Assembly (NCBI GenBank): GCA_903916595.1
Contig: CAIWXI010000030.1
Location: forward strand, 1 to 64,000
Direction of reading: 5' to 3'
Length of the DNA: 64,000 nucleotides
DNA from: an uncultured Bacteroidales bacterium
Lineage (GTDB): Bacteria; Bacteroidota; Bacteroidia; Bacteroidales; FEN-979
A program made the translations under genes and the position numbers. Below are positions 14,043 to 43,176 of the stretch, piece after piece (within the stretch, counting starts at the first letter, position 1; each line of letters begins with the position of its first letter). The notes beneath the pieces are model-generated. The model searched no databases. It saw only the letters and a program-made list of their open reading frames with translations, and had not been told where the DNA came from.

Positions 14043-14148
14043 TGTACGATGTACGATGTACGATGTACGATGTACGATGTACGATGTACGATGTACGATG
14101 TACGATGTACGATGTACGATGTACGATGTACGATGTACGATGTACGAT
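14041..14148. repeat. GATGTAC heptamer array, 15 perfect copies
   Basis: Fifteen identical GATGTAC units run from 14041 to 14145, then GAT. The first bases form part of the TGA stop of the fusion gene. The copies show no divergence, which suggests recent expansion. An antisense open frame with a YIVHRTS-type repeat across it is an artefact of the array. Confidence 0.98.
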
Positions 14149-14182
14149 TTCACCATCTCACCATTTCACCATTTCACCATTT
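14149..14182. repeat. TTTCACCA octamer tract
   Basis: Three to four units of TTTCACCA (one reads TCTCACCA) directly follow the GATGTAC array. On the other strand this is the GTGAAATG octamer seen at 34616-34661 and 37869-37936. The rest of the gap up to 14206 is AT-rich, with no clear promoter. Confidence 0.85.
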
Positions 14183-19600: not shown

Positions 19601-22600
19601 AGAAAGCTTCACATTATAGGAACCACCGCTGGTATACCGATGTTTCAGATTCGGGTTTGAAGGGAAAACGACATGAGCAAGTGCCCCATCTCCGAAATCC
19701 CAGTACCAGTCGTGTATACTTCCGTGAACTGTGGTTGAGAGATTGGTAAACTGCACCGAATCGCTTGCACAGGTTGGAGATGAGAAACTGAACTGAGCTA
19801 CGGGGGCGCCATATACATCAATCGATTTGTGTTTGACTCCCTGACAACCCAGAGAATTTGTGGCTGTAAGTGTCACATCAAAGGTTCCGGAGTTACTATA
19901 TGTATAAGTAGGATTCTTAACGGTTGAAGTACCTCCGTCGCCGAAACTCCAGGCCCATCCAACGATAGTGCCGCCAGTAGAATTATCTGTGAACACCGTT
20001 GGACTTGATTTGCAAACGCTCGTTGCTGTAAAATCGGCCAGCGGATTTGCCGTAATGGTGACTGTGGCACTGCTGTCCTTGTAACATCCGCTTGCATTGG
20101 TGACTTTTAAATGAACAATATATGATCCGGCAACAGCAAAACTATGAATCGGATTCTGCTGAGTGGATGTATTATTACCTCCTGATGTGGGATCTCCAAA
20201 ATTCCATTGCCACTGAGAAATCTGTCCGCCTCCATTAGGTTGCGAAATATCAGTAAACTGAACAGGTGCCAATTCACAGTTAACGGTTGACCACTGGAAG
20301 CCGGAGATCGGGTTATACTGAATCTGAACCGGAATAGTATTTAGCTGGGTACAATTATCAGAGGTGGTTACCGTAAGAATTACCTGATAAGTGCCTCCTG
20401 TTGCATACGTATGCGAGATAGTCGGTGAGGCCGAGCTTTGAGTATTGCCATCACCAAAATCCCAGGTCCTGTTATTAATGTAGCCGTGCGATGTTGTGGA
20501 AAGATCAGTAAATGTTACCGGGCTTCCTGCACAGGTTGGAGAGGTAAAGCTGAATGTAACAATAGGTTTGGCCCAGACCTGAACAGGCTTGGTAGCTGAA
20601 TGAACGCATCCATTTGAAGTAGTCACCAAAAGGGTAACATTGAAAGTGCCTCCTATAGCATAAGTATAGGTTGGATTCTGAGCCGCAGAACTCCCGCCAT
20701 CACCAAAGCTCCATAACCATGACACAATCGTGCCTGAAGCAGATGTTGAATTATCGGTGAAGGTGGTTGCGTTACCCTGGCAAGCCGATGTGGCGCTGAA
20801 GTTAGAAACCGGGTTGGCGTTGATAGTAACCTGTATGGAGTCTCTTCCAAGACAGCCATCTGCATTTGCAATAACCAGATGAACCCAGAATATACCGGCA
20901 GCAGTGAAATTATGTACCGGGTTCTGCTGGGTTGAATTATTGTTTCCTCCTGAACCAGGATCCCCGAAAGTCCAGTTCCATTGTGTGATAGCGCCTCCAC
21001 CGTTTGGCTGGGAGTTGTCGTTGAACTGAACCGGAGTTAGGACACAGAGTGAATTAGTTACGGTAAATGATGCTGTCGGGGCAAACTGAATGGATACCGG
21101 GATAGTCTTCGTTCCTGTACAACTGTCGGAAGTCCTTACCGTGAGCAACACATTATAATTGCCTCCCGTGGTATACTGATGAGTAATCGAAGGGGAAAAC
21201 GTATTCACGATATTTCCGTCGCCGAAATCCCAGATTCTTCTGAAAATATATCCGTGACCTGTTGTCGACATATCCGTAAAAGTCACATCGTTACCTGCAC
21301 AGGTTGGAGATGAGAAACTAAAGGATGTAACCGGGAATGGATATACTTCGATTGGATTGGTGATGCTTTTTGTACAACCGTTTGAATTAGTTACCGTGAG
21401 TGTTACATAATGAATCCCTGCTGTGCTGAAAAGATAGGTCGGATTGGGTACACTGGCCGTTCCTCCGTCACCAAAATCCCAGGCCCATGTAACAATGGTC
21501 CCGGTGGGCGTAGTTGAAGCATCTGTAAATACAGTCAGATCACTTAAGCAGCTATTGGCTGATGTGAAAGCTGCAACCGGCTTTTCACCAATCGTCACAT
21601 CAATGGTCTTGGTGGCAGTACATCCATTTACACTGGTAACAATCAGAACTACATGATGAATACCTGCACTTGTAAAGCTGTGAAATGGATTCTGCAGAGG
21701 CGAAGTATTGGATGAACCTGAACCCGGATCATCGAAAGTCCAGGCCCATTGTGTGATCGTACCTCCGCCATTGGTCTGTGAATTATCAATAAAACTCAGG
21801 GTCTGGTTCAGACAACCTACACCGAGAAAAGTGAAATCTGCAATCGGAGCAGGAATCCCTGTAACAACCTTTTGTATTGAGTCAATACATCCATCGGTGG
21901 TCGTTGCAATAAGTGTAACAGTATGAGAGACTGATGCATCAAGATAAGTATGAGTCGCTACCGGGCCGCTTCCGTATAGTGTGGCATCACCCCATTTCCA
22001 TACCCAGCTGTTGATAAAACTTGTAAACCCGGCCGGAACATAGGCCTGGCTTGTAAAAGTAATTTGTGCATGCTGGCAGAACGGACTGGTACTTATAAAA
22101 TCAACCACCGGTTTTGGGTTTACAGTTACGCTCCGGGTAATTGTATTTGTACAGCCGTTGGAGTTGACAACCACAAGTGTGACTGAATGTGTTCCTGCTG
22201 TGGCAAATAGATGTTGCGGATTCTGAAGGGGTGAGGTGCCGCCGTCGCCAAAATCCCATGCCCATGACAGTATGCCGGAAGCATTTGGTACTGTGTTATC
22301 TGTAAAGAGGGTATTATCGCCCAGGCAGGGTGTTGAAAAAGCAAAAGCAGGAGCTGGCAATTCATTAATAATGATTGTTTTAATGATGGTGTTGCTGCAA
22401 TAGTTGGTATTGGTGACAATTAGCTTGACCGTTTTTGAACCCGGCGTATTATAAATATGCGAAGGGTTTTGGGCAGGGGAGAAATTGAATGATCCGGAAG
22501 CCGGATCGCCAAAATCCCAGGACCAAGACATCAGATTTCCTCCTCCATTGGTCTGCGAAAGATCGCTGAAATGAACCGATTGGGGTGCAATGCAGGAAAA

Positions 22601-25477
22601 TGATCCGCCTGTAACCTCAAAATCAGCAAGAGGGGATGCCACCTGCTGAACATTTATAGTCCTGGACTGAGTACAACCGCGGTTTGTGGTAACCGTAAGA
22701 ACCACATCCCATCCTGTGGAACTGTAAACAGCATAAATATGCGAAGGATTTCGTGTTAAATCATGAATCGAACCATCTCCAAAATCCCAGTCCCATGCAA
22801 CGATTACATCATTATATGGCAAGGGGACAGCTGAAAGGTCTGTAAACTGAATGGCCGAGCCGAAACAAGTAGGTGTTGTAAATGTGAAATTGGCTATTGG
22901 TTTGGGGATTATACTCACAACATGCTGTTTCGATTTACTGCAGCCATTTACATCAGTCAGGGTCAGAGTAACTGTATAATCACCAACCGAGGCATATAAA
23001 TGAGATACACTACCGGGTGCTGAAGAATTGTTGGCATCGCCAAAGTCCCATAACCAGGTATAGTTGGCTGGAGGTAAAGCTATGGGATCGGTTGTTAAGT
23101 TTACCGATTGATCAAGACAAACATTATTGTTATATGAAAATTCTACAGGAATAGGTGCATTGATGGGCACATTGATGGTCTTCACAGGGCTGGGGCAGTT
23201 CTCGAGGTTCTCCCATGATTGTAAAGTTACATTATAAGAGGTTTTACCGCTCTTAAAAGTATGCGTTGGATTCTGCAGGTTGGATGTGTTGGCTGCTCCT
23301 GATAAGGGATCATCAAAAGTCCACAACCACTGGTAAATAGTACCCGGGGGAGTAGTGTTCGCATAAGACTGGTCTACAAAGTAAACATCCTGTCCGTCGC
23401 AGGCCTGCGTCTGATGCAGGTGGGCAGGATCGCTGAACCATATGAAATTCGCGGTTGGTGCATCATATATTGTTACCCATAAATCGAATTGAGTTTCGAG
23501 AGGGGTCCCCAGGTTAAGTACCCTTGTTACATGGTAGGGACCGGGACCGGCATAGGCATGAGTTGGGGAAGCAGGAACATTTGGAGCAACAAAATGCTGA
23601 ATCCCCGAGCCATCGCCGAAATCCCAGTCCTCGGTGGTGATCAGGCCTCCCGGCGGACAGGGGACAAATAAAACATCGACATTCTGGCACTGGTTAGGCG
23701 GATTTGCAGTAAAGCAGGCTGCAGGCGGTGCACCCAGCGAAACATCATGTGTTACAAAATTGGTGCAGCCGGTTACCATATCGGTTGCTGTACAACGGAC
23801 CGTATAGCCCCCAGGTCCTGGATAAGTATGTGTGATAGGTGAGCCAAATCCATTCGTGCCATCGCCAAACTCCCAATAAACATTATTGCTGACATGCTGG
23901 GCAGGGTTTACCTGGGCCGTAAAAGTCTGTTCATAGGCCGTAGCGCCCTGAGCAGAAGCAAAATCAATGTCAGGACGAGGATTCACAACAAGAGGGCTGG
24001 TTTGCAGGATTTTTGTGTTTGCACAGCCATTCTGATTTGTAACAATAAGTGATACGTGATAGATTCCGGGACCTGAAAAAAGATGAATGGGGTTTTGGTC
24101 AGTAGAAGAATTGCTTGGTGATGCAGGATCATCAAAGTTCCAGAGATATGAAGCAATGGGGCTGCCTGTAAGCGGCGAACTCATGTCGGTGAACTGCACT
24201 ATATCCCCGGCGCAAGTGATAGTAGGATAACTGAAATCTGCCCTGGGAGAAGGTTCAGCCTGAACGGGTACGGCGATGGTTGCATTTTCGCAGCCATTGC
24301 TGTTCATCACTCTCAATGTTACATTATGCGGTAGGAGATCTGTAAAAATGTGGGTTAACGGAACAGGTGGAGGAGTGCCGGTAGTACTGTAATGATCAGT
24401 GCCGGAACCATCACCCCATGACCACCACCAGTCGGTCATTGAACCTGTGTTTGCCTGTGAAATATCGGTAAATATGGTAGCTTCATTTACACAAGCCTGG
24501 TTAAATGTAAAGGCAGCAACTGGTACTGTGTTACCAACAACAACGGCTTGAGGAGTCGTGGTGCTTTCACAGTTTATCGTGTTTGTAACCTTTACAGAAA
24601 CATAATATGTGCCGGGAGCCAGGAAGGTATACGTGGCGGTCATAGAGCAGGGAATCGTTACCCCGTCGCCCGAATGGTAAAAAAGTACGCCATCAATATA
24701 CCAGTCACAGTATTTTATTTTAATCGTTGCATCAGGATTACTGGCAGGCTTTGGTAAACTGCCTGCAGCAGAAAAAGCATACTGGTTGTACAAACAGTTC
24801 GGGGCAGTAACTGAAGTGAGATCGGCAGTAGGCTTGAATTTATCAGGATCAACATACACATAATCGGTAATTTCATCCGTTTGACCGGCTGGATTCTGGA
24901 TCGTTAGCTTTACAGGAAAAGTATGAGGCGGAGCATAGGCTCCGGTTATAGGGAAAGTCCATGATTGTGCCGCGGTGCCTAAATGGCTCCCTGTTCCGTC
25001 TCCAAAATCCCAGGTATAAGTCACTGTGGGGTCATTCGGATGTACTGAAACATTAGGATCGGCCGTAAAATTCACAACGTTATAATAACATCCTCCGGTA
25101 GGGTCGAACTGATAATAAAAATAAGAATGTAACAAAGGCTGGATAGCCACAGTTATGGAGGCAGATACCGCGTTGCATGGAAGATCTGCAGAATTTTTTT
25201 CATTTATCGTAAGCGTGGCAGTAGTTGGAGTATTTCCCCACACAACGGTTACCTGGTTGGAGATGCTGGAACCTGTAATCGACCCGCCTGAGGGTAATGA
25301 CCAGATGTACGTATGACCTGGAATGGCATTGGTCATATACGTGACAGTTTGCCCTGCCCTGACTACATCAGGACCAATTACAACCGGCTGAGTATCGCGA
25401 CATTGTGCAAAAAGCGAAGCATATGAGAGTAGCAGGAACCCGGAAATAAAAGTAAGGCGCAATGTTAAATTCCGCAT
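16634..25477 (-). CDS. Giant PKD-repeat surface adhesin with T9SS type B C-terminal domain
   Basis: A 2947-residue secreted protein with an N-terminal signal peptide (LRLTFISGFLLLSYASLFAQ). About 30 PKD domains follow, recognisable by W-x-W-x-FGD (for example WAWDFGDGGTS, WNWTFGDPGSGG) and conserved NPxHxF and VTLxVTNxxGC segments. The last about 95 residues (LFVPNAFAPTSGNMAVRLFK, then YLMQVFDPGGHLMWES, DGWDGTYNGELMPQGNYFW) are the gliding-motility-associated C-terminal domain, a type B T9SS sorting signal. Between about residues 985 and 2015 the modules follow a three-domain super-repeat of 256-259 residues. Likely a SprB-like surface adhesin or extracellular matrix component; the ligand is unknown. 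Its partner is the PorP/SprF gene immediately downstream. Confidence 0.95.
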   Translation of the reverse strand: MRNLTLRLTFISGFLLLSYASLFAQCRDTQPVVIGPDVVRAGQTVTYMTNAIPGHTYIWSLPSGGSITGSSISNQVTVVWGNTPTTATLTINEKNSADLPCNAVSASITVAIQPLLHSYFYYQFDPTGGCYYNVVNFTADPNVSVHPNDPTVTYTWDFGDGTGSHLGTAAQSWTFPITGAYAPPHTFPVKLTIQNPAGQTDEITDYVYVDPDKFKPTADLTSVTAPNCLYNQYAFSAAGSLPKPASNPDATIKIKYCDWYIDGVLFYHSGDGVTIPCSMTATYTFLAPGTYYVSVKVTNTINCESTTTPQAVVVGNTVPVAAFTFNQACVNEATIFTDISQANTGSMTDWWWSWGDGSGTDHYSTTGTPPPVPLTHIFTDLLPHNVTLRVMNSNGCENATIAVPVQAEPSPRADFSYPTITCAGDIVQFTDMSSPLTGSPIASYLWNFDDPASPSNSSTDQNPIHLFSGPGIYHVSLIVTNQNGCANTKILQTSPLVVNPRPDIDFASAQGATAYEQTFTAQVNPAQHVSNNVYWEFGDGTNGFGSPITHTYPGPGGYTVRCTATDMVTGCTNFVTHDVSLGAPPAACFTANPPNQCQNVDVLFVPCPPGGLITTEDWDFGDGSGIQHFVAPNVPASPTHAYAGPGPYHVTRVLNLGTPLETQFDLWVTIYDAPTANFIWFSDPAHLHQTQACDGQDVYFVDQSYANTTPPGTIYQWLWTFDDPLSGAANTSNLQNPTHTFKSGKTSYNVTLQSWENLENCPSPVKTINVPINAPIPVEFSYNNNVCLDQSVNLTTDPIALPPANYTWLWDFGDANNSSAPGSVSHLYASVGDYTVTLTLTDVNGCSKSKQHVVSIIPKPIANFTFTTPTCFGSAIQFTDLSAVPLPYNDVIVAWDWDFGDGSIHDLTRNPSHIYAVYSSTGWDVVLTVTTNRGCTQSRTINVQQVASPLADFEVTGGSFSCIAPQSVHFSDLSQTNGGGNLMSWSWDFGDPASGSFNFSPAQNPSHIYNTPGSKTVKLIVTNTNYCSNTIIKTIIINELPAPAFAFSTPCLGDNTLFTDNTVPNASGILSWAWDFGDGGTSPLQNPQHLFATAGTHSVTLVVVNSNGCTNTITRSVTVNPKPVVDFISTSPFCQHAQITFTSQAYVPAGFTSFINSWVWKWGDATLYGSGPVATHTYLDASVSHTVTLIATTTDGCIDSIQKVVTGIPAPIADFTFLGVGCLNQTLSFIDNSQTNGGGTITQWAWTFDDPGSGSSNTSPLQNPFHSFTSAGIHHVVLIVTSVNGCTATKTIDVTIGEKPVAAFTSANSCLSDLTVFTDASTTPTGTIVTWAWDFGDGGTASVPNPTYLFSTAGIHYVTLTVTNSNGCTKSITNPIEVYPFPVTSFSFSSPTCAGNDVTFTDMSTTGHGYIFRRIWDFGDGNIVNTFSPSITHQYTTGGNYNVLLTVRTSDSCTGTKTIPVSIQFAPTASFTVTNSLCVLTPVQFNDNSQPNGGGAITQWNWTFGDPGSGGNNNSTQQNPVHNFTAAGIFWVHLVIANADGCLGRDSIQVTINANPVSNFSATSACQGNATTFTDNSTSASGTIVSWLWSFGDGGSSAAQNPTYTYAIGGTFNVTLLVTTSNGCVHSATKPVQVWAKPIVTFSFTSPTCAGSPVTFTDLSTTSHGYINNRTWDFGDGNTQSSASPTISHTYATGGTYQVILTVTTSDNCTQLNTIPVQIQYNPISGFQWSTVNCELAPVQFTDISQPNGGGQISQWQWNFGDPTSGGNNTSTQQNPIHSFAVAGSYIVHLKVTNASGCYKDSSATVTITANPLADFTATSVCKSSPTVFTDNSTGGTIVGWAWSFGDGGTSTVKNPTYTYSNSGTFDVTLTATNSLGCQGVKHKSIDVYGAPVAQFSFSSPTCASDSVQFTNLSTTVHGSIHDWYWDFGDGALAHVVFPSNPNLKHRYTSGGSYNVKLSITTTDSCKNEITISVPVEHKPTANFSNASGACALMANQFTDLSQTNGGTPLASWSWSFGDPTSGSNNTSTQQNPTHAFSAGGTFLVHLMVTNATGCYDTLSTQISVNAAPVPLFTYDTACVNSPTQFHDNSTSPSGTVNAWQWNFGEPSSGSANTSTLQNPIHNYAAPGYYMVTLNVTNTNNCSHDTIKQISVSPKPLALFQYSAACAQDSTTFTDLSIAPNSQLVAWLWDFGDGGTAAIQNPKHRYAVAGTYTVKEVVTNLSGCKDSITQSVIVHTKPLAAFQYTSKFCPKGQVTFQDLSSAAGAVITDHLWNFEAGGTSTVPNPVYTFPVTDTTYAVTLMVTDSYGCKDTVVDSVRVKPAFKFTFTNDTVCLAYATHFHPVNQAAGDSLFSPRWEFGDPNSGPANNSSLYNASHIFTAPGLYYVKLKVFNSDNCIDSVFRTIQVYALPKPFFSYVAPQCDSVLHFNDTTTNFGTGTIASWEWRFGDGSAPLIIPAPGPGDTSHIYSVPGDYLVTLIVTNTRGCVDSITKGVTRLPCIKADYTYQDTLRCANYMVTFQDTSIPTSRIRLWKWTWGDGKDTTYSTYSQYLQHRYALAGTYNVKLWIKAVVNSKDVPDSITQQVIIHPTPKTLFSDIPVCLHQPSLFRDTSLTYGEGISAWVWTFGEPSSGAKDTSILKNPTHTYTSRDTFDVKLVTMNKFGCKDSLVKSMRIYGLPVASFSYTAACTGDPTYFRDTTLIADTTIAYWRWQFGDMSSKKDTSLLQDPVYKYKSGGDYLVSLIVKDNYGCRDTLDSTVTVHITPISAFTLINGYDGIPGRVKLNNLTVGASGYTWDFGNGKTSNDTNPVATYSEDGTYSIRLISTNNFGCKDTTFYEYKILFRGLFVPNAFAPTSGNMAVRLFKPVGINLKTYLMQVFDPGGHLMWESNRLDNNGAPLDGWDGTYNGELMPQGNYFWKATATFIDDSPWTGSNTGVSGSGGTMGSVILLR
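19427..22513 (-). repeat. Three-PKD super-repeat (period about 770 bp) within the adhesin
   Basis: Equivalent FGDP or FDDP codons fall at 22511, 21734, 20966, 20198 and 19427, spaced 777, 768, 768 and 771 bp. Within each period the modules appear in the order GDP-x-SGG, GDGG-[ST]-S, then a third type (R-x-WDFGDGN). The pattern points to amplification of a three-domain block. Confidence 0.85.
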
Positions 25478-33193: not shown

Positions 33194-33952
33194 TTGAAAT
33201 TGAAGATCAGGAATATCCTTGTTTCCCAGCCACAGCCCACAGATTTTGAAAAGTCTCCTTATGCAGAGATTTCCCGAAAGTTCTGTGTCACCTTCACATT
33301 CAAACAATTGATCCAGATTGAGGGAGTCCCGGCGAAAGATTTCAGGAAAGACCGTATTAACATTCTCGATTATTCTGCTATAATATTTACTTCGAAGAAT
33401 GCGGTTGACCATTTTTTCAGGATCTGCAAGGAGATGCGTATTGAAGTTCCTGAAGCGATGAAATATTTCAGCATCTCTGAATCCACGGCATATTATCTTC
33501 AGAAATACGTTCAGTTCAGAAAAAGAAAAATCTTTCACAGCAAGGAAAATTTTGCATTACTGGTCGACCTGATAAAAAAGCACAAGAACGAAAAATTCCT
33601 CCTTCCTTGTTCAGATGTTCATAAACAGGATGTACCTAAAATGCTTGAAGACAGCAAGGTAGTTTATAAGAAAGCGATTATATATCGTACCCTTGCCCGC
33701 GATATGTCCGACACTGACATCACAAAATACGACATGCTGGTATTCTTTAGTCCGGCAGGGATCAAGTCGCTTTTCAAGAATTACCCGGAATTTATTCAGG
33801 GGGACATGGTAATTGCTGCTCTGGGGACAAGTGTTGCCCAGGCTGCCAAGGATGCAGGTCTGCGCCTGGATGTTGAAGCTCCAACCAAAGAAGCTCCTTC
33901 CATCACCAGCGCTATTGAACAATTTCTGACCCGGGAAGCCAAGAAAAAATAG
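33194..33952 (+). CDS. hemD: Uroporphyrinogen-III synthase-like protein
   Basis: A 252-residue HemD-family protein of tetrapyrrole synthesis, expected to cyclise hydroxymethylbilane. The two-lobe pattern is visible: an N-terminal RNILVSQPQPTD, YSAIIFTSKNAVDHFFRICK in lobe one, FLLPCSDVHKQDVPKMLED, and YDMLVFFSPAGIKSLFKNYP with VIAALGTSVAQAAKDAGL in lobe two. In Bacteroidota this gene follows DUF4271. The start is likely the TTG at 33194, since no ATG fits. HemD proteins diverge strongly, so the assignment rests on pattern and synteny. Confidence 0.85.
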   Translation: MKLKIRNILVSQPQPTDFEKSPYAEISRKFCVTFTFKQLIQIEGVPAKDFRKDRINILDYSAIIFTSKNAVDHFFRICKEMRIEVPEAMKYFSISESTAYYLQKYVQFRKRKIFHSKENFALLVDLIKKHKNEKFLLPCSDVHKQDVPKMLEDSKVVYKKAIIYRTLARDMSDTDITKYDMLVFFSPAGIKSLFKNYPEFIQGDMVIAALGTSVAQAAKDAGLRLDVEAPTKEAPSITSAIEQFLTREAKKK

Positions 33953-34007
33953 TTCAGCCCAGGATCGGTAACAACCCTCTTGAATAAGCGGTTAAATTAT
34001 CCGGAAA

Positions 34008-34397
34008 ATGTCTCTTACTCTTACAAAAAACGAACGCCTTTATGAATTCCGGCTCATTCGCGCACTTTTTGCACGGGGACGAATATTTTCGGTACCACAT
34101 ATAAAGGTCACCTGGCTGAAATGTAATGAAACGGCTGAGATTTCAAACCAGATAATGATCAGTGTACCTAAAGCAATTCACCGTAATGCGACAAACCGGA
34201 ACCTCATCAGGCGCCGTATCAGAGAATCTTACCGGCTCAACAAATCGATACTATATGACCGGCGATCATCAAAGCCGTCGCAACTCTCTTTCTGTATTAC
34301 CTATACATCGAAAGAAATCATGCCCTATAGGGCCATACAAGATAAAATAATTTTACTTTTACGGCGTTTAAAAGAAGAGTGTGAAAAAGATTTTTAG
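34008..34397 (+). CDS. rnpA: Ribonuclease P protein component
   Basis: A 129-residue basic protein, the protein subunit of RNase P that trims tRNA 5' leaders. The family signature is [16 protein letters not shown], with the N-terminal [20 protein letters not shown] and the central strand [12 protein letters not shown]. It is followed by yidD with a 17-base overlap, the common rnpA-yidD order; rpmH is not next to it here. The protein ends near a lysine/glutamate-rich tail. Confidence 0.95.
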
Positions 34398-34602
34398 CGG
34401 TTTTTTCATTCTTCTGATACGATTTTACCAGGGAGCTATTTCTCCCTTCCTGATGCCTTCATGCAGGTATACACCAAGCTGCTCAGAGTATGGTATAGAA
34501 GCCATAAAAAAGCACGGGCCTTTAAAAGGAGGATGGCTTACTTTGAAGCGGCTTGGCCGATGTAATCCCTGGGGCGGGAATGGGTTTGATCCGGTACCGT
34601 GA
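34381..34602 (+). CDS. yidD: Membrane protein insertion efficiency factor YidD
   Basis: A 73-residue YidD with the family motifs [32 protein letters not shown] (conserved Cys residues) and [17 protein letters not shown]. YidD assists YidC-dependent insertion of inner-membrane proteins. Translation begins at a GTG within rnpA, overlapping by 17 bases. A tandem octamer repeat follows the stop. Confidence 0.95.
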
Positions 34603-34615
34603 TAAGTACGAAGTA

Positions 34616-34661
34616 GCGAAATGGTGAAATGGTGAAATGGTGAAATGGTGAAATGGCGAAA
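34616..34661. repeat. GTGAAATG octamer array
   Basis: Five units (the first GCGAAATG, then four GTGAAATG) plus a partial unit lie between yidD and the S41 protease gene. The same octamer occurs at 37869-37936 and, on the other strand, at 14149-14182. Confidence 0.96.
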
Positions 34662-34694
34662 CAGATATTATCACGATAAAAACAAAGACTGGAT

Positions 34695-36434
34695 ATGAGC
34701 AGGTTGAAAATTTTTCTTTTTATAGTTTTAACAGGGATCAGCTTTTTCGCTGTTGCTCAGGACAAACCGGCTCCGGAGGAGAACAAAGGGAATATCGGGT
34801 TTGAGCTGATGAAAAACCTCGACATTTATTCAAATCTTATTAAGGAATTAAGTGTTGATTATGTGGATGTGATCAACCCTGGACAGCTCACCCAGACCGG
34901 AATTGATGCAATGCTTGAATCACTGGACCCATATACTAATTTTATCCCTGAAAACCAGGTAGAAGATTATAGATTTATTACAACCGGACAATATGGCGGT
35001 ATCGGAGCCCTGATTCACCAGCAAGGAAAATATGTGGTTATTTCTGAGCCCTATGAAGGATCACCAGCCCAGAAATCAGGACTTAAGTCAGGCGATAAGC
35101 TGATCAGAATCAACGGGCAGATGGCTGTTAATAAAACGTATGACGAGGTAAGCACTATTTTAAAAGGCCAGGCTGGAACACAGGTTAGCCTCTTGGTTGA
35201 ACGAAGCAATCCTTCGGATACCCTGGTTATAAATATTATCCGCGAAAACATAAGAATCGATAATGTACCCTATGCCGGCATGCTCCCCGATGGAATCGGG
35301 TATATTAAACTTACCGGCTTCACGCAGAATGCTTCAAAAGAGTTCCGACAGGCTTTCTTAAAACTGAAGGAAAAGAATACCCTCAAAGGGCTTATCATTG
35401 ATATCAGAGGAAACGGTGGCGGACTGCTTAATGAAGCCGTCGATATAGCGAACCTGTTTGTTGAAAAAGGGCAGGAGATTGTTTCAACAAAAGGAAAAAA
35501 AGCCGACAAAAACCAGGTACACTCCACTACTTCTTCGCCGGTTGATCTTGAAGTACCCCTGATTATCCTGGTCGACAGCCAGAGTGCCTCCGCATCGGAA
35601 ATCCTGGCAGGCGCTCTGCAGGACCTTGACCGGGGTGTTGTATTTGGTCAGCGTACTTTTGGAAAAGGGCTGGTACAAAATGTAGTGCCCTTAAGTTATA
35701 ATGCCCAGATGAAGATTACGGTGGCAAAATATTATATCCCCAGCGGCCGATGCATACAAGCCATCGATTATTCACATAAAAACAAACAGGGATCGTTTGA
35801 TAAAATTCCTGATTCCCTGATCCGTGAATTCAAAACCAGGCACGGTCGTAAAGTATATGATGGCGGCGGTATAAGTCCGGATGTCAAGGGCAGCGAACGC
35901 AAAATCAGCAACATCGCCCTGGCCCTTTATAATAAATTTCTCATCTTCGATTACGGAACACAGTTTGAACGTTCACACCAGACCATCTTGCCTCCCGATC
36001 AGTTTGAAATCACCGACACAATCTTTAATGATTTTCTGAAATTCCTGAAAGATAAGGACTACAAATATACCACCCGCAGTGAGCTTGCCTTGGAAAGACT
36101 GAGAAAGGAAGCTGAGAAAGAGCAGTATTACGATGCTGTCAAAGCTGAGCTTGATATGGCACAAACCAGTATGGACAATGACAAAAAAGAAGACCTTAAC
36201 AAGTACAGGGATCAGATACGGGAGTTGCTTAAAATGGACATTCTGTCGAGGTACTATTATCAGAAAGGAAAAGTCATCGGTTCACTATACACTGATCCTG
36301 TGCTTAATGATGCTGCAGGAGTTCTTAAGGACCCAGCCAGATATGCCGGAATCCTCGAGGGAAAATTCTCACAGCCCGACAACAGCTTACCCGGTTCAGT
36401 GGAAGAAGAAATACATTCTAAAGATGGTCAGTAA
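34695..36434 (+). CDS. S41 family carboxy-terminal processing peptidase
   Basis: A 579-residue exported protease with a signal peptide (LKIFLFIVLTGISFFAVAQ). It has a PDZ domain near residues 95-175 (YGGIGALIHQQGKYVVISEP, SGLKSGDKLIRINGQ) and an S41 catalytic core. The Ser motif DSQSASASEILAG is at residues 294-306 and the catalytic Lys in FGKGLVQ near 324. The C-terminal third is charged and helical (RSELALERLRKEAEKEQYYD). CtpA/Prc-like proteases process or degrade periplasmic proteins from the C-terminus. It follows yidD across a repeat-filled gap and precedes the ChaN-like gene. Confidence 0.93.
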   Translation: MSRLKIFLFIVLTGISFFAVAQDKPAPEENKGNIGFELMKNLDIYSNLIKELSVDYVDVINPGQLTQTGIDAMLESLDPYTNFIPENQVEDYRFITTGQYGGIGALIHQQGKYVVISEPYEGSPAQKSGLKSGDKLIRINGQMAVNKTYDEVSTILKGQAGTQVSLLVERSNPSDTLVINIIRENIRIDNVPYAGMLPDGIGYIKLTGFTQNASKEFRQAFLKLKEKNTLKGLIIDIRGNGGGLLNEAVDIANLFVEKGQEIVSTKGKKADKNQVHSTTSSPVDLEVPLIILVDSQSASASEILAGALQDLDRGVVFGQRTFGKGLVQNVVPLSYNAQMKITVAKYYIPSGRCIQAIDYSHKNKQGSFDKIPDSLIREFKTRHGRKVYDGGGISPDVKGSERKISNIALALYNKFLIFDYGTQFERSHQTILPPDQFEITDTIFNDFLKFLKDKDYKYTTRSELALERLRKEAEKEQYYDAVKAELDMAQTSMDNDKKEDLNKYRDQIRELLKMDILSRYYYQKGKVIGSLYTDPVLNDAAGVLKDPARYAGILEGKFSQPDNSLPGSVEEEIHSKDGQ

Positions 36435-36450
36435 TTAATTAAATTTACTT

Positions 36451-37458
36451 ATGAAAAAAATACTACTTGTCAGTTTATTATTAGCTGGTTTTATTTTTTC
36501 CGGATTCAGTTCCGGTAAACCTGCCTATAAAGTATTCACATCTAAAGGCAAATCGGCTGATTTTAAAGATATTGTAAAAGCAGCCAGCTCGTCCGATATG
36601 ATTTTTTTCGGGGAACTGCATGATAATCCAATCTGCCACTGGCTGGAACTACAGCTTGCCAAAAACCTGCTCCAGGTGAAAGGCAAAAGCCTTGTACTCG
36701 GAGCCGAGATGTTCGAAACAGACAATCAGCTGCTCCTGAATGAATATGTTACCAGACAAATCATCCGGAAAAAAGATTTTGATGCCGAAGCTAAATTATG
36801 GCCGAATTACAAAACTGACTATTCTCCCCTGGTCGAATTAGCCAGGGAAAACAAGCTCAGGTTTGTTGCAACAAGCATTCCCCGCAGATTCGCAGCCATC
36901 GTGAATCTGAAAGGCTTTGACGGGCTAACTAATATCCTGGCCAATGAACGCGGACTGATGGCACCACAACCCATTCCATTTGATTCATCACTGGGTTGTT
37001 ACAAGAACATCATGGAAGCTGTTAAGGGAGCACCCCATATGGGCACCAATCTGGCGCAGGCACAGGCAATGAAAGATGCAACTATGGCCTGGTTCCTGAT
37101 TAAAAACACACTGATGGACAGCACTATTTTTCTGCATTTCAATGGCGCTTACCATAGTGAAAACTATGAAGGAATCGTATGGATGGTACAACAATATGTG
37201 CTAAGAGGCAATACTTCACCAAAAATCATGACAATAACCTGCGTGGAACAGGATGAACTTAATGACCTTGAAAAATCAAACGAAGGGAAGGCAGACTTCA
37301 TCATTGTTATCCCATCTGATATGACAAAGACCTATGCTACCGACCCTGCTTTTATGGCTCCTGCAAAGCCTTCCGCCGACGACAAAAAAGAAAAAGAAAC
37401 GAGCTTAAAACCCAAACCCGGTCAACAGCAGGTTGCAGTGGATGATGACGACGACTAG
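36451..37458 (+). CDS. ChaN/Tiki-family protein (heme-uptake-type)
   Basis: A 335-residue exported protein with a hydrophobic leader (MKKILLVSLLLAGFIFSGFS). The ChaN/Tiki-superfamily motif is MIFFGELHDNPICHWLELQL, followed by SLVLGAEMFETDNQ and LHFNGAYHSENYEGIVWMVQ. ChaN-like proteins have been linked to heme or iron uptake, but some relatives are peptidase-like, and the substrate is not certain. The C-terminus is an unusual charged tail (PSADDKKEKETSLKPKPGQ, then QQVAVDDDDD), probably a flexible extension. It begins 17 bases after the S41 protease. Confidence 0.8.
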   Translation: MKKILLVSLLLAGFIFSGFSSGKPAYKVFTSKGKSADFKDIVKAASSSDMIFFGELHDNPICHWLELQLAKNLLQVKGKSLVLGAEMFETDNQLLLNEYVTRQIIRKKDFDAEAKLWPNYKTDYSPLVELARENKLRFVATSIPRRFAAIVNLKGFDGLTNILANERGLMAPQPIPFDSSLGCYKNIMEAVKGAPHMGTNLAQAQAMKDATMAWFLIKNTLMDSTIFLHFNGAYHSENYEGIVWMVQQYVLRGNTSPKIMTITCVEQDELNDLEKSNEGKADFIIVIPSDMTKTYATDPAFMAPAKPSADDKKEKETSLKPKPGQQQVAVDDDDD

Positions 37459-37461
37459 TCG

Positions 37462-37863
37462 TTATGCAAACGTAAAATAAGCATTGATTAAAAAATTCCA
37501 AAACGTAACCAACAGGGTTGCAACCAGTTTGGAGACATAGAAATTTATCTTGAATTTGCCCGTCAGCGCCCAGATAATTAAAAGGTTGATTCCCAACCCG
37601 ATCAGCGCAATCAGGAAAAACCTCGAAAACTCAAGTCCAATCTGAGGATTGTGGCTGTGAAAAGTCCACATACGATTCATCATGTAGTTGGTTGTTGCAG
37701 CCGTGGCAAAGCCAATGGAATTTGAAACGTATTTCTGGATTTTGATGTATTCCTTGCATATAAAAGTGATGCCGAAATCCACGAAGACTCCTGAAAAACC
37801 CACCAAACAGAATTTGATGAATTTCAATACGAAGGCGTTGTTGAATATTTGCGGAATGTCCAT
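37462..37863 (-). CDS. GtrA-family membrane protein
   Basis: A 133-residue four-helix membrane protein of the GtrA family. Conserved segments are FIKFCLVGFSGVFVDFGITF, ATAATTNYMMNRMWTFH and FLIALIGLGINLLIIWALTG, with a final LVATLLVTFWNFLINAYFTF. GtrA-like proteins are thought to help move lipid-linked sugars across the membrane. Its start codon lies five bases from an octamer repeat array that fills the gap to the M28 gene. Convergent with the ChaN-like gene, with three bases between. Confidence 0.9.
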   Translation of the reverse strand: MDIPQIFNNAFVLKFIKFCLVGFSGVFVDFGITFICKEYIKIQKYVSNSIGFATAATTNYMMNRMWTFHSHNPQIGLEFSRFFLIALIGLGINLLIIWALTGKFKINFYVSKLVATLLVTFWNFLINAYFTFA

Positions 37864-37868
37864 GATTT

Positions 37869-37936
37869 AAATGGTGAAATGGTGAAATGGTGAAATGGTA
37901 AAATGGTGAAATGGTGAAATGGTGAAATGGTGAAAT
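37869..37936. repeat. GTGAAATG octamer array (eight units)
   Basis: Eight 8-bp units (one variant ending in TA) plus a partial unit fill nearly the whole space between the GtrA start at 37863 and the M28 peptidase stop at 37943. Confidence 0.97.
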
Positions 37937-37942
37937 CACAAC

Positions 37943-39724
37943 TTATAACTGAATAATTAATATCTCGACTTTCCCGTTCCGGAGTACTTCAACATTGACC
38001 GTCATCCCTGTCTTGAGCTTATTTAAACGGGCCATGTAGTCATAAATACTTTCGACTTTCATGCCGTGTACCGAAATAATGATATCGCCCTTAAGCATCC
38101 CGCCCTTGTATGCCGGGCCGTCTTTTGTCACACCGTCTACCCTCAGCCCTTTTTTCTCCGAGCCGGCAAAATCGGGCATGATACCCAGGGTTACTTTAAG
38201 ACGACGACCGCTTCTTCCGGCATTTTCCTTTTTCCCCGATTCCTTAAATGTAAGGTCTTTGGCCAGGTTATCAATATCAGCAATAAGGGCTGTACTGAAA
38301 TCCCCTATTATCTTTTCTGCATTATAATCCAGCCTATCTGCATCATCAAGAGGAGTGTGATAATCCATATGCACGCCCGTGGTGAAGAAAAAGACAGGTA
38401 TATTTGAAGAGTAGAAAGCTGCATGATCCGATGGGCCATAGCCATCGGGAGAATGAGTAACAGCGAAAGGCAAACCTTTTTCAAAGATTTTCAATATACT
38501 GTCGCCTTCGGCGGATGTCCCTGTACCTCCTATTGATATGGAATTCTTTTCCTTATCAAAACGGCCCACCATGTCGAAATTGAACATGGCTTTTATTTTT
38601 TTTATAGGAACAGGCGAGTTGTTTACAAAATATTTTGATCCGAGCAGACCCATTTCTTCACCTGAAAATGCAACGAAAATAATGCTCCTTCTCAATTTCG
38701 CTTTCTGTGCGCCAAGTTTCCTGGCGAGCTCCATGACCATCGCGGTCCCTGAAGCGTTATCATCGGCACCGTTATGAATGGCAACTGTGTCGGGCACCCT
38801 CGAACCTGAATTCGGTCCGCCGAAACCGAGGTGATCATAGTGTGCTCCAACCACCAGATATTCATCTTTCAAAACTTTATCGCTGCCCTCAAGCAATGCA
38901 ATAACGTTTGCCGTTTTTGCATGCTTCTGAACTACGTCGACCTGTCCGCGAACTATCGTTCCGGTTTCAAAGCTGCCGGGTTTTTTCTTTGCAACGATGA
39001 GATGCTCCAGGCTGTCGGCCGAAATACCTTTTGAAGCCAATATACGGTCTGCCAGTTCGTGTTTAATATTTATAACCGGAATCCCACTGGTAACTTCATT
39101 GTTTTCAACAACTACAGCCATCAGCTTATCATCTTTGTCGAGCCCCCTGGGTGTGACAAGCAACACGCCCGCGGCTCCCTTGTCCCTGGCGGTAAGCACC
39201 TTGCCGCGGGTATCGCTGAAAGGGATGAACTTACTATTAGTATTATCCAGCTCGGGATCAGCCCTGAAAATCATAACCCACTTGCCTTTAACGTCCACGC
39301 CTGAATAATCGTTCCATTTCAGGCTGTCCAGATCCAGGTCAAAGCCATATCCGCCAAAAACCACAGAAGCATTGACTTCTCCGCTTGATGAATAAGCGAG
39401 CGGGATAAAATCCTTTCTGAAAGCGGCGTCATAGCCGTCTATCGAAATTTTATTATCGGCGCCAAGGGTCACGTCGGTAACAATGTCAAAATACTGAAAT
39501 CCGCCATCAGCCAAGGGTTTAAGACCTGCCGCTACAAAATGATCAAGAATATATTTTGCAGCCACGTTCATCTCTGAAGTGCCTGGTTTCCTGCCTTTAA
39601 GTGAATCGGATGCCAGAAAAGAAACATATTTCTTCAGATCCTTTGCAGTTATTTCATTTTTCTGGGCGTGCACCGGCAGCGCAAACACCGCAATTACCAA
39701 ATAAACTAAAAATCGTTTCATCAT
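37943..39724 (-). CDS. M28 family metallopeptidase with PDZ domain
   Basis: About 593 residues with a signal peptide (MKRFLVYLVIAVFALPVHA). It has a PA domain (KWVMIFRADPELD, GAAGVLLVTPRG), the M28 zinc-peptidase domain (VVGAHYDHLGFGG, NGADDNASGTAMVMELAR, FVAFSGEEMGLLGS, NFDMVGRF, GVHMDYHTPLDDADRLDY), and a C-terminal PDZ domain (KDGPAYKGGMLKGDIIISVH). It is expected to be an exported aminopeptidase for peptides. I chose the Met at 39724 (MMKRFL), since the longer frame to 39772 runs into repeat-like sequence. Downstream of mnmA on the same strand. Confidence 0.92.
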   Translation of the reverse strand: MMKRFLVYLVIAVFALPVHAQKNEITAKDLKKYVSFLASDSLKGRKPGTSEMNVAAKYILDHFVAAGLKPLADGGFQYFDIVTDVTLGADNKISIDGYDAAFRKDFIPLAYSSSGEVNASVVFGGYGFDLDLDSLKWNDYSGVDVKGKWVMIFRADPELDNTNSKFIPFSDTRGKVLTARDKGAAGVLLVTPRGLDKDDKLMAVVVENNEVTSGIPVINIKHELADRILASKGISADSLEHLIVAKKKPGSFETGTIVRGQVDVVQKHAKTANVIALLEGSDKVLKDEYLVVGAHYDHLGFGGPNSGSRVPDTVAIHNGADDNASGTAMVMELARKLGAQKAKLRRSIIFVAFSGEEMGLLGSKYFVNNSPVPIKKIKAMFNFDMVGRFDKEKNSISIGGTGTSAEGDSILKIFEKGLPFAVTHSPDGYGPSDHAAFYSSNIPVFFFTTGVHMDYHTPLDDADRLDYNAEKIIGDFSTALIADIDNLAKDLTFKESGKKENAGRSGRRLKVTLGIMPDFAGSEKKGLRVDGVTKDGPAYKGGMLKGDIIISVHGMKVESIYDYMARLNKLKTGMTVNVEVLRNGKVEILIIQL

Positions 39725-39737
39725 AATGTTAATATTA

Positions 39738-39775
39738 AGTAGCGAAATAGCGAAATATCTGATATCTGCCATCTT
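39738..39775. repeat. Degenerate GCGAAATA / TCTGATA / TCTGCCA tract
   Basis: AGTAGCGAAATAGCGAAATA is followed by TCTGATATCTGCCATC. These are short units resembling those at 34611-34623 and 59341-59381. It fills the gap between the M28 start and the mnmA stop. Confidence 0.6.
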
Positions 39776-40867
39776 TCAAACAATCACATTTTTAATAACC
39801 CCGCCTCCCAGCACCACATCCCCGTTGTAAAACACAGCGCTTTGTCCGGGAGTTATTGAATCATTAGGGTAAAAAAAAGTAGCTTTTACAAGTCCGTCTT
39901 CATACGGTTCAATCAATGCATCTTTCTCTTTCTGTGCCGAACGGATCTTGATACTCACATCCATCGGGCCCTGTAACCCTTCAATAGCGATCCAGTTCAG
40001 GTCGCTGACCAGAAACTCCGTATTGAGTGTATCTTGCCTGTTACCAACTACCACCGTATTCATTTCCTTATCAATCCTGATCACATACAAGGGTTCCGAC
40101 CATGCTATGCCCATACCCTTTCTCTGCCCGATAGTGTAATTCCAGATCCCCTGATGAGTACCAACCACCTTCCCGTTAGTATGTATAATATTACCCGGGG
40201 CGGATTCATGTTCCAGAAGATCCTTGTAATTCCCGCTATAAAAATCCTGACTCTCCTCTTTATCATAAACAGGGAGCCCGGCTTCTTTAGCAATCTCTTT
40301 TATCTCAGTCTTTGTATACCTTCCTACAGGAAGCATGGTCCTGCCAAGCTGCTGCTGGGTAAGCCGGTAAATAAAATAAGTCTGGTCCTTTTTCTGATCA
40401 ACTCCCTTCTTCAGCAAATACCGGCCTGAGAGAGAATCCAGTTCCACCCTCGCGTAATGGCCGGTAGCGAAATAATCGTAGGCAAAACCCTTTTTCTCAG
40501 CCATTGCCGGAAGTAATCCAAATTTAATATGCTGGTTGCATTGAATGCATGGATTCGGAGTACGTCCTGCAAAATATTCGTTCCTGAAATAATCAAGTAC
40601 CACTTTCTTATATTCTCCAGAGCAATCAAAAACATCAAAAGGGATTTCAAGGATTCCGGCAATCTCCCGGGCTTCACGGATCTCTTCTTCCTCATCCGGA
40701 CCGTAACAGGCATGCTTGCCGCCTGAAGATACCGGAAGTTTTTTTCCATCCCACAAAGCCATGGTCACACCAATAACCTGATAACCTTGCTGTTTTAAAA
40801 GATATGCTGCAACAGAAGAATCAACTCCTCCGCTCAATCCAATAAGTACAGTATTCTTAGTATTCAA
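39776..40867 (-). CDS. mnmA: tRNA 2-thiouridylase MnmA, atypical cysteine set
   Basis: A 363-residue MnmA, which puts sulfur on wobble U34 of some tRNAs. The ATP-binding PP-loop LIGLSGGVDSSVAAYLL is at residues 8-24. TPNPCIQCNQHIKFG holds Cys107 and Cys110, and YTIGQRKGMGI and QSAVFYNGDVVLGGGVI are also conserved. The segment that normally carries the second catalytic Cys (SQEICF-type) reads ESQDFYSGNYKDLLE near residues 205-219 and has no cysteine. The only cysteines are 54, 82, 107 and 110. This may be an iron-sulfur-type or otherwise different MnmA subclass. A -7 box lies at 40900-40907. Confidence 0.92.
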   Translation of the reverse strand: MNTKNTVLIGLSGGVDSSVAAYLLKQQGYQVIGVTMALWDGKKLPVSSGGKHACYGPDEEEEIREAREIAGILEIPFDVFDCSGEYKKVVLDYFRNEYFAGRTPNPCIQCNQHIKFGLLPAMAEKKGFAYDYFATGHYARVELDSLSGRYLLKKGVDQKKDQTYFIYRLTQQQLGRTMLPVGRYTKTEIKEIAKEAGLPVYDKEESQDFYSGNYKDLLEHESAPGNIIHTNGKVVGTHQGIWNYTIGQRKGMGIAWSEPLYVIRIDKEMNTVVVGNRQDTLNTEFLVSDLNWIAIEGLQGPMDVSIKIRSAQKEKDALIEPYEDGLVKATFFYPNDSITPGQSAVFYNGDVVLGGGVIKNVIV

Positions 40868-40911: not shown

Positions 40912-43176
40912 TTATTTTACTTGGATAAGCCTGATGGTTTTTGTGAAATCAGGAGCAGTAAGGCGAAGGAGCAGGATGCGGGATGCGGGATGCGGGATGC
41001 AGGATGCAGGATGCAGGATGGAGGGATCATATGTTATTTCATATATTCCTGACTGCTGATACCTGTGAACCAGAGTTGCAATTAATGTTCCCTCAATACT
41101 GAAAACCTCCAGTTTTACCTTACCCGGAGTTTGAAGCTCGTATGCTATTGTGGTCTGATCTGTGAACGGATTAGGGTAGTTGATTAATCTGTTTTCGGCG
41201 GATGACTTTTCGTTGGATATTCCTGTGATAGGAGAACAAGGCGAAAACTGAACTCCATCGGCCCACAGAGTAAATCCGTAATCCCAGCAATCGGCATGAA
41301 TTTCAACATAATTTACTGAATCGTAGTTCATATTTCCAACAATCGTTCTCGAAAAACCATTCCCTCCCGAAACCGGACATTTCAGGAGCTTCCAATTAAG
41401 GTTCGCTGAATTCAGCAAGCCAGGCGAAGCAGTGTACTTAAAATACCCTCCCTTTGAGTTCCCTATCCTGACCGAAAAATACTGAAAACCAAAGGGATTT
41501 TTTATCGTTCTTACCCAGAAATACAGGGTATCAGACGATGTCAGACCCCAGTTTGAAACCGAATCGGCCGAAGGCCTGTAATTCAAAGCAAGGTCCCATC
41601 CCCTGCTGGTAACCATTTTTACCGAGGCCATGCCCACTTTTTTAACCGCGGTGTCGAAATAAACCGAGTCGCCAAACCGATTCGTGGCAGGATAACCGGT
41701 TTCAGGATATGCATACCAGACCGAAGGGGGTTCAGCCATATCGCATGGCGGGTTCGACTGTATTGCAGGTTGCTCACCCTGTGTATATGGCCACCACTGG
41801 ACCTGGCCGAGGGAGGAGTTGTTGTGTTTATCATACACTTTGTGAAGTATCATCAGACTGTCGGATGGTATAAAAAGGTTATCCGGAGCATATATATTGT
41901 AAGAGGATGTATTCTGAAAATGATACACGGTAGGCGAGATGAAAGTATTCCCTGTGATAGTATCAAGGTTCGATTGGCCATCGAAATATAACGAGGCGCT
42001 CTGACTGTAATTGTAGATGTTCCCGGTCATATGGGTATGCTCAGTTTTGGAAAGGGAAACCGCCAGAGTGTTGCCATCGAAGATATTCGAATGGATGTCG
42101 TAATCCTTGGAATACTGAGTTGTATAGCCTGTGATCGGACTGCCTTCCCATAAGGCAATACCCCTGGGATTGTTTCTTATCGTGTTGTTTGTTATCTGGT
42201 TGCTGAAACCACGGTCGATGGCAATGCCATCTGTAGTATTTCCGTTGATTTCGTTGCTGTCGATAACCGATTGGAAAGAATACCCAAGCCATAATCCGTA
42301 ACTGCTGTAGTTGCATAGGTTATGTTTATACACGTTGCCGGAAGCAAAGGTTGCTTCGATGGCATTGTGAGGAGAATACGAACATTCATTATATGCGAAA
42401 TAATTGTTGTTCGGAGTGGTTGAATGTTGATACTGCCCCAGAAAAACACCGTCGCCAGACCACGACAGATCATTGTTGGTGACGGTGTTGTTATTCGAAA
42501 TAATCAGTAGCAGGGCCGCACAATCACTGGGATCGGTCCTGGGCCGGTTTACATGCGAACAGTTGTTCTGGTAAATATGACAGGTGTCGGTCCAGAACAT
42601 CCTTATTCCATAGGATGTATTCCACGAAAAATCGTTGTCATGAATTTTAATGGAATCACAGTGATACAGGGCCACCCCATCATTCTGCATATTCATAATA
42701 TTATTATGAATATGCACAGCGCGGCTCTGATATAGCATTACTCCTCCTCCAAGCGCTTTGGTATAGTCGGCCCACACATCAATCCAACCTGCTGAATCAA
42801 CCTTGTTATGGCAAAACGTATTGCTGTCGATGGTAATATGGTCGGAATTCGTAATGTAAACGGCATATTTATAACTAAAAACTGAATCAAAATTTTTGAT
42901 TATGATGTTGTGCGAATTGTTGATTTTTATCATGTATCCCTTGAAAATCTGTCCGTTGACTCTGCAACTGTCACCATCAAGAACAATATTATGCTGACCG
43001 TTGATCTGGATCACACCGTTCGAATCGGGGTCGGAGAAGACATAGTTGTTCGGAATGAATTTGATATTTGAATAACTGTTGATCTGCATATTATTGGTGA
43101 TGGGGATACGGGTCTGAGCATGTAATCCAGTCATCACAAGAAACAATGCAAGAAACGAAAAAGCGAGAGTTCGCAT
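40912..43176 (-). CDS. Secreted parallel beta-helix protein with T9SS sorting domain
   Basis: A 754-residue protein with a signal peptide (MRTLAFSFLALFLVMTGLHA). Residues about 50-440 are NosD-like right-handed beta-helix repeats (NNSHNIIIKNFDSVFSYKYA, NSDHITIDSNTFCHN, DSNEINGNTTDGIAIDRG). A beta-sandwich carbohydrate-like region follows (WYAYPETGYPATNRFGDSVY; SDTLYFWVRTIKNPFGFQYF). The C-terminus (NRLINYPNPFTDQTTIAYEL, KVKLEVFSIEGTLIATL) is a type A T9SS sorting domain. In place of the usual loop near its end, residues about 718-734 are a GATGCRG-derived insertion ([15 protein letters not shown]) before LLLRLTAPDFTKTIRLIQVK. Probably a surface or secreted polysaccharide-active protein; activity unknown. 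Confidence 0.88.
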   Translation of the reverse strand: MRTLAFSFLALFLVMTGLHAQTRIPITNNMQINSYSNIKFIPNNYVFSDPDSNGVIQINGQHNIVLDGDSCRVNGQIFKGYMIKINNSHNIIIKNFDSVFSYKYAVYITNSDHITIDSNTFCHNKVDSAGWIDVWADYTKALGGGVMLYQSRAVHIHNNIMNMQNDGVALYHCDSIKIHDNDFSWNTSYGIRMFWTDTCHIYQNNCSHVNRPRTDPSDCAALLLIISNNNTVTNNDLSWSGDGVFLGQYQHSTTPNNNYFAYNECSYSPHNAIEATFASGNVYKHNLCNYSSYGLWLGYSFQSVIDSNEINGNTTDGIAIDRGFSNQITNNTIRNNPRGIALWEGSPITGYTTQYSKDYDIHSNIFDGNTLAVSLSKTEHTHMTGNIYNYSQSASLYFDGQSNLDTITGNTFISPTVYHFQNTSSYNIYAPDNLFIPSDSLMILHKVYDKHNNSSLGQVQWWPYTQGEQPAIQSNPPCDMAEPPSVWYAYPETGYPATNRFGDSVYFDTAVKKVGMASVKMVTSRGWDLALNYRPSADSVSNWGLTSSDTLYFWVRTIKNPFGFQYFSVRIGNSKGGYFKYTASPGLLNSANLNWKLLKCPVSGGNGFSRTIVGNMNYDSVNYVEIHADCWDYGFTLWADGVQFSPCSPITGISNEKSSAENRLINYPNPFTDQTTIAYELQTPGKVKLEVFSIEGTLIATLVHRYQQSGIYEITYDPSILHPASCIPHPASRILLLRLTAPDFTKTIRLIQVK
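40975..41023. repeat. GATGCRG heptamer array in the T9SS sorting domain
   Basis: Seven units: three GATGCGG, three GATGCAG, then GATGGAG. Read on the minus strand within the end of the beta-helix protein it adds the heptad [14 protein letters not shown]. Same family as 1027-1115 and 5031-5133. Confidence 0.95.

Follow-up and report, generated by a model that had tools for sequence, protein, structure and literature searches.

Tandem arrays of 7- and 8-base words in an uncultured Bacteroidales bacterium tend to keep their intergenic places while the words change between related species

The heptanucleotide repeats of Calothrix PCC7601 go by the name STRR. They are mentioned as three tandem heptanucleotides by Rehm et al. 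(2015, PMC4692102), whose own subject is the GGGAATC and GGGGA(C/T)T heptamers of Xanthomonas and Nostoc; these are described as mostly intergenic, with many near stop codons and with variable unit numbers, and in Xanthomonas as forming inverted pairs; in two related genomes, 90% of the repeats are reported to lie between the same open reading frames. A second system, the TAACTGA repeats, is described from Beggiatoaceae, Cyanobacteria and five Bacteroidetes (MacGregor 2015, PMC4679880), where it is sporadic across relatives; in the Bacteroidetes treated there, gaps hold several heptamer words and contigs end in repeats. According to the summary in the same paper, Mrazek et al. (2007) found heptamers to be the commonest class of long simple sequence repeats (units of 5-11 bp) in most genomes and proposed that slippage is tied to how long a stretch of DNA the polymerase contacts. 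Here we describe arrays of the octamer GTGAAATG, and of other words of 7 or 8 bases, in an uncultured Bacteroidales bacterium (lineage FEN-979; assembly GCA_903916595.1), starting from positions 1 to 64,000 of contig CAIWXI010000030.1, the 64-kb stretch referred to as the window.

The original prediction, made from the letters of the window, placed GTGAAATG arrays in three gaps (between yidD and an S41 peptidase gene, between gtrA and an M28 peptidase gene, and before icd), and all three arrays are real. Comparison of the source genome (G000; 3,786,092 bases in 166 contigs, 97.8% complete) with seven congeners (G001-G007), eight genus genomes in all, shows that location lasts longer than sequence: a slot tends to persist, and its word usually differs between related species. 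In 139 comparisons of orthologous gaps 50 bp or longer, scored for shuffle-tested arrays and tabulated apart from the yidD–S41 gap, both genomes held an array in 33, only the source genome in 19, only the sister in 3 and neither in 84 (Fisher P = 3e-15, the sisters not being independent). Counted by distinct gap, the same four classes held 14, 4, 2 and 33 (P = 1e-7), and an earlier, smaller set had given 10, 4, 1 and 46 (P = 1e-7), or 8, 3, 1 and 28 by distinct gap (P = 2e-5). In the yidD–S41 gap an array of 7- or 8-mers is seen by eye in 8/8 genus genomes, degenerate in G003, and both congeners put to the shuffle test (G005 and G007) pass; the words there are GTGAAATG in G000, CAGGGAG in G005, GCGAAAR in G002 and GAATATT in G007, and the S41 genes of the congeners are 75-88% identical in DNA. 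The gtrA–M28 gap shows arrays by eye in all seven genomes reached, the source included, with other words in 6/6 congeners; of the four congeners tested against shuffles, G002, G005 and G007 pass and G001 fails. The icd gap of G007 holds TGTACAA where that of G000 holds GATGTAC. At a further place, L043:13784-13984, an octamer slot (CTGGGTCA) of G000 corresponds to a tetranucleotide ATTG array in the orthologue on contig C54 of G007, a change of period at one slot.

Within the window, the arrays in these three gaps are as follows.

34611-34661, forward strand: GTGAAATG array in the yidD–S41 gap, with its core at 34618-34661 and variant units at both ends
37869-37936, forward strand: array of 8.5 units of AAATGGTG in the gtrA–M28 gap, 5 and 6 bases from the flanking genes
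14147-14182, reverse strand: array of 4.5 units of ATTTCACC before icd, ATTTCACC being GTGAAATG on the reverse strand
14041-14148, forward strand: GATGTAC heptamer array of 15.4 units before icd, directly abutting the octamer array

The first unit of the array at 34611 is the variant AAGTAGCG (34611-34618) and its last is the variant AAATGGCG. This array had been thought to fill its gap; it does not, as yidD ends at 34602 and the array stops 33 bases short of the S41 start at 34695. The margin of about five bases given for either side of the 37869 array agrees with the 5 and 6 measured (gap 37864-37942). The octamers assigned to the icd gap are present, but most of that gap is occupied by the GATGTAC array. 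The two-unit 16-mer GTGAAATGGTGAAATG, allowing up to 3 mismatches, matches the window 17 times against 1.22 expected, and 0/100 shuffles reach 17. By Pfam, the neighbouring genes are icd (Iso_dh), YidD, RNase P protein, S41 peptidase, GtrA and M28; a very long open reading frame of 2947 aa lies at 16634-25477 on the reverse strand. An Rfam scan of the window at gathering scores found no RNA family, and a binding protein or small RNA was sought no further than Rfam.

The arrays lie chiefly in gaps. In 20 loci of the source genome, with 9.8% of their DNA lying outside called genes, 29/31 GTGAAATG arrays are in gaps, as are 14/15 in the stretches from contigs C30 and C31; in those stretches, 46/59 arrays whose period is 7, 8 or a related multiple are mostly intergenic, with gaps making up 10.4% of the sequence. 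Array ends that face a stop codon (n=79) fall within 10 bp of it in 56% of cases, against 32% when arrays are placed at random in those gaps, and ends that face a start codon (n=87) do so in 22% against 23%, start positions being approximate because genes were called by our own codon model. In tandem gaps (n=57), 37 arrays are closer to the upstream stop and 19 to the downstream start. The idea that the repeats are placed or expanded specifically between genes is thus borne out only in part, since 2/31 GTGAAATG arrays lie in called genes and in-frame arrays of a different word sit inside three genes of the window. As arrays fall in genes too, their bias towards gaps seems to reflect tolerance and retention, not targeting.

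The in-frame arrays of the window are these.

5029-5133, forward strand: GGGATGC array of 15 units in a short-chain dehydrogenase gene (4800-5669)
1027-1120, reverse strand: array with a 15-bp superunit (7+8) in another gene for a short-chain dehydrogenase (519-1613); G007 lacks the array
40967-41024, reverse strand: AGGATGC array close to the 3' end of the gene for a beta-helix protein (40912-43176); compared with G006, it is a short insert

The dehydrogenase gene at 4800-5669 was read at this site in G000, G002, G003, G005, G006 and G007. Its orthologues have two tandem GGATGC-type units in G005, G006 and G007, a mutated pair in G003 and a degenerate longer run in G002, and the gene is 28 residues longer in G000 (15 units) than in G007. 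The 2-unit and 15-unit states at this one site belong to different species rather than to strains; they likely record the birth of an array, from 2 units to 15 in-frame units, the two-unit state being presumably ancestral as the commoner one. Likewise, L034:11446 has 8 pure units in G000, a single AAATAGCG unit in G007 and AAATAACG in G001. The insert in the gene at 519-1613 belongs to the GGATGC word family and sits in a loop of variable length among the seven species read. In the three genes, the GGATGC(A/G) arrays encode peptides like LHPAS and DAGCGMQ. One such peptide array, used as a protein query, gave 157 matches in G000, many of which are array frames that overlap, and 2-15 in the congeners, so this word looks amplified in G000 too. 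GGATGC arrays also share a three-unit pattern (lag-3 agreement 0.786 against 0.652 when shuffled, in 7 arrays), which could reflect copying between loci or slippage in 21-base steps.

Persistent slots that crowd stop codons could be read as regulatory or structural elements (terminators, tracts affecting RNA stability or platforms for protein binding) that selection holds at fixed gaps. The inverted pair L034:19551/19618, which folds strongly (z -8.7), and the surplus of inverted over direct neighbour pairs of the same word (6 vs 3) would fit such a role; an enrichment of inverted pairs was nevertheless dropped, 6 vs 3 being too few. The five RNA stretches without an inverted partner, two of which are strands of one array, speak rather against it, four giving z of -0.36 to -1.19 and one -2.96, and predicted terminators and promoters in 33900-40000 are at chance level (6 vs 6.6 and 14 vs 11.6 expected). 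Conserved strand polarity was rejected: at orthologous slots the sign of the GC skew agrees in 36/65 pairs and that of the purine content in 44/77, little above half. Because word and period change at kept slots and strand is weakly conserved, a sequence-specific or strand-specific signal is disfavoured, and the in-frame arrays inside genes point the same way. A regulatory role is therefore quite unlikely, and the arrays most likely have no sequence-specific function.

GTGAAATG shares the genome with many other words. In 441 kb of source-genome sequence, Tandem Repeats Finder (TRF; score of at least 50) returned 38 rows of period 7 and 45 of period 8, followed by periods 21 (15 rows), 14 (13) and 24 (8), which are multiples of 7 or 8; such rows overlap one another, and merged arrays were counted separately. 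Merged arrays of period 7 or 8 make up 39/49 in G000 (C30/C31), 8/14 in G002, 7/10 in G005 and 12/15 in G006. The words in G000 include AAATGGTG, GATGTAC, GGATGC(A/G), CAGATNN, ACCCAGTC, AAGTAGCG and CACGTGA. Autocorrelation of intergenic DNA peaks at lags 7, 14, 21 and 28 in G000, G005, G006 and G007, and also at 8 and 24 in G000; coding DNA shows the codon period only. Array density per 100 kb at score 50 is 20.1 in G000, 8.3 in G006, 7.0 in G002, 5.6 in G005 and 5.5 in G007. At the level of the order, no arrays were present in 5/8 samples, of which four span 20 kb and one 3.9 kb, and G028, G034 and G040 had 1, 4 and 2 in 5-14 kb. In a family member, G022, the 20 kb sampled (L118, C1:1-20000) contain 24 arrays, of which 11 repeat AACACTT, so that a different word seems to have undergone a burst there.

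The original prediction knew GTGAAATG from three sites; across the genome, its exact two-unit 16-mer occurs 668 times (291 forward and 377 reverse), far above chance, and the reversed control gives 0. The C30 and C31 stretches contain 49 exact 16-mers, corresponding to 15 arrays in 244 kb, from which G000 would be expected to hold roughly two hundred GTGAAATG arrays, an extrapolation that uses contigs picked for containing matches. At least seven contigs (C39, C67, C97, C100, C119, C143, C157) start or end in, or a few bases from, such arrays, so the counts are lower bounds, and the repeats seem to fragment the assembly. The 16-mer is present in 12/41 genomes of the sample of relatives (own included), each of the seven congeners having 0-2 matches and genomes from other genera of the family up to 33. 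A wide taxonomic reach was rejected, as the 16-mer occurs in 2/296 genomes sampled across the phylum, own included. The borders of the runs are not random in phase: 30/41 begin exactly at AAATGGTG, where a hand estimate assuming uniform phase and chance extension gives ~14%, and 26 finish with AAA or AAAT; among the remaining borders, some are a mere switch to variant units. Of 11 arrays with variant units, 6 have them at the ends only and 5 also inside. This suggests that borders are set by AAAT homology and that growth comes partly from inside; the AAAT could be homology or a target duplication like that of mobile repeats of the MITE or REP type.

Words are shared both within species and at slots. 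Counting as shared a word with at most 1 mismatch in any rotation or on either strand, 69/330 same-species array pairs, 14/84 orthologous-slot pairs and 60/1539 other pairs share one, and 0/2000 permutations reach the species or the slot effect, although loci of the source genome were partly selected for GTGAAATG matches. The species effect holds without G000 (24/140 same-species pairs vs 31/716 others; null mean 13.2, 0/500 permutations) and in the slots of the window and L034 only (26/142; null mean 9.9, 0/500). As sharing is raised in same-species and same-slot pairs alike, words appear to be both inherited at the slot and spread within the genome. The common process invoked by the original prediction is thus supported by the genome-wide counts, the position of 29/31 arrays in gaps, the boundary phase and the word sharing within species. 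Alternatively, slippage might act purely locally, each array having an independent origin and words coinciding since the same words are slippage-prone. The short and long states at one gene site, and the occurrence of the GTGAAATG word in other genera of the family, accord with this, but the strong species effect on word identity, with or without G000, and the preferred border phase make it an unlikely explanation on its own.

Perhaps, instead, the slots are long-lived landing sites through which word-specific copying, as a kind of bacterial satellite drive, periodically sweeps one word. The copying would be microhomology-primed template switching or gene conversion between unlinked arrays, with species gaining their own words while the slots stay. 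We regard this reading as possible, if on the improbable side; if word sweeps are true, bacteria show concerted evolution as in eukaryotic satellites. The preferred starting phase and the many copies of one word would also be compatible with RNA-templated repeat writing by a telomerase-like reverse transcriptase. However, the RVT_1 profile (PF00078) has 0 matches in G000, which is 97.8% complete and far exceeds the other genomes in copies of the word, and matches in just 2/8 genus genomes (G006 and G007); lacking the profile in G000, templated writing is extremely improbable.

We consider it fairly probable that the arrays are long simple sequence repeats born by slippage, tolerated mainly after stop codons and partly homogenised between loci. 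Chance seeds of one or two units would start new arrays, which would then lengthen by strand slippage; the short and long states at one gene site are observed, and the direction of change and the polymerase step are what this scheme adds to them. Arrays would be kept where extra DNA is harmless, in gaps and chiefly right after stop codons, or in genes if in frame, so that purifying selection would set where they persist. Once occupied, a slot would usually stay occupied, though the word in it drifts or gives way to another. In G000, GTGAAATG was by extrapolation amplified into well over a hundred tracts, and it probably spread by copying between arrays sharing short homology (the AAAT borders) during repair or replication, an exchange deduced from word sharing and borders. 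MutS was found in 8/8 genus genomes, which rules out its loss as the cause of the burst. Loops of 7-8 bases escape mismatch repair, which would favour such units over units of 1-4 bases.

Several points weigh against this account. Slippage alone leaves the dominance of one word unexplained (668 matches vs 0-2 per congener), the retention of MutS removes one explanation of the burst, and no donor-recipient copying event was seen among the arrays compared. A sister array is missing in 19/52 comparisons at arrays of the source genome. In favour of seeds, ARRTRGYG units number 37 in 3264 bp of sister gaps orthologous to GTGAAATG arrays of G000 vs 13 in 28171 bp of gaps without an own array, but this count per kb is inflated by tandem units and stems mostly from G004 and G002; tested per gap, the effect is weak (8/31 vs 11/113, P = 0.03). 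A simple clade of the species with ARRTRGYG units was also considered; a tree of S41 DNA with one outgroup did not group G000 with G001, G002 and G004 alone, placed the outgroup beside G004 and was not used. Variant units are confined to the ends in just 6 of the 11 variant-bearing arrays, the shared three-unit pattern rests on few arrays, and the two-unit state of the dehydrogenase gene could be a contraction rather than ancestral. One single array folds better than its shuffles (z -3.0), besides the strong inverted pair (z -8.7). Finally, the dominance of the periods is uneven: 4/11 arrays of G007 have period 7 or 8, G001 has no array of any period at score 50 in 40 kb, and the lag-7 autocorrelation is absent in G001 (6.7 kb of gaps) and weak in G002.

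Compared with described systems, the arrays belong to the long simple sequence repeats, having units of 5-11 bp in head-to-tail order and lengths beyond chance. As far as the published accounts cited above describe them, the Xanthomonas and Nostoc repeats resemble those found here in their 7-base units, intergenic position, nearness to stop codons, inverted pairs, kept gaps and variable numbers of units. They differ in having one G-quadruplex-type word per lineage, whereas here many 7- and 8-base words are replaced at kept slots; GTGAAATG has no GGG and so does not fit the GGGNATC G-quadruplex pattern, and other words here (GCGGGAT, TTAGGGA) do contain GGG. With the TAACTGA system, as described, the arrays have in common heptamer direct repeats, a sporadic occurrence across relatives, several words in gaps and contigs ending in repeats; in its main genome, however, that system lies mostly just upstream of starts, while the present arrays are closer to stops and include a dominant octamer. 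TAACTGA, for which no dedicated search was made, is not among the words listed for G000 and its relatives, and GTGAAATG is a different unit. Calothrix PCC7601, in the mention cited, likewise has several heptanucleotide words in one bacterial genome, but belongs to another phylum and has other words. The work of Mrazek et al. (2007) is a statistical survey, and its available summary contains no comparison of slots and words between species. In a limited search of the literature on related repeats, which is no proof of absence from print, slot persistence with species-specific word replacement was not found. The repeat class is thus already known, and the new part is the persistence of slots with turnover of words: one gap can be traced across eight species in single-unit, degenerate and pure-array states, and bacterial heptamer repeats become testable.

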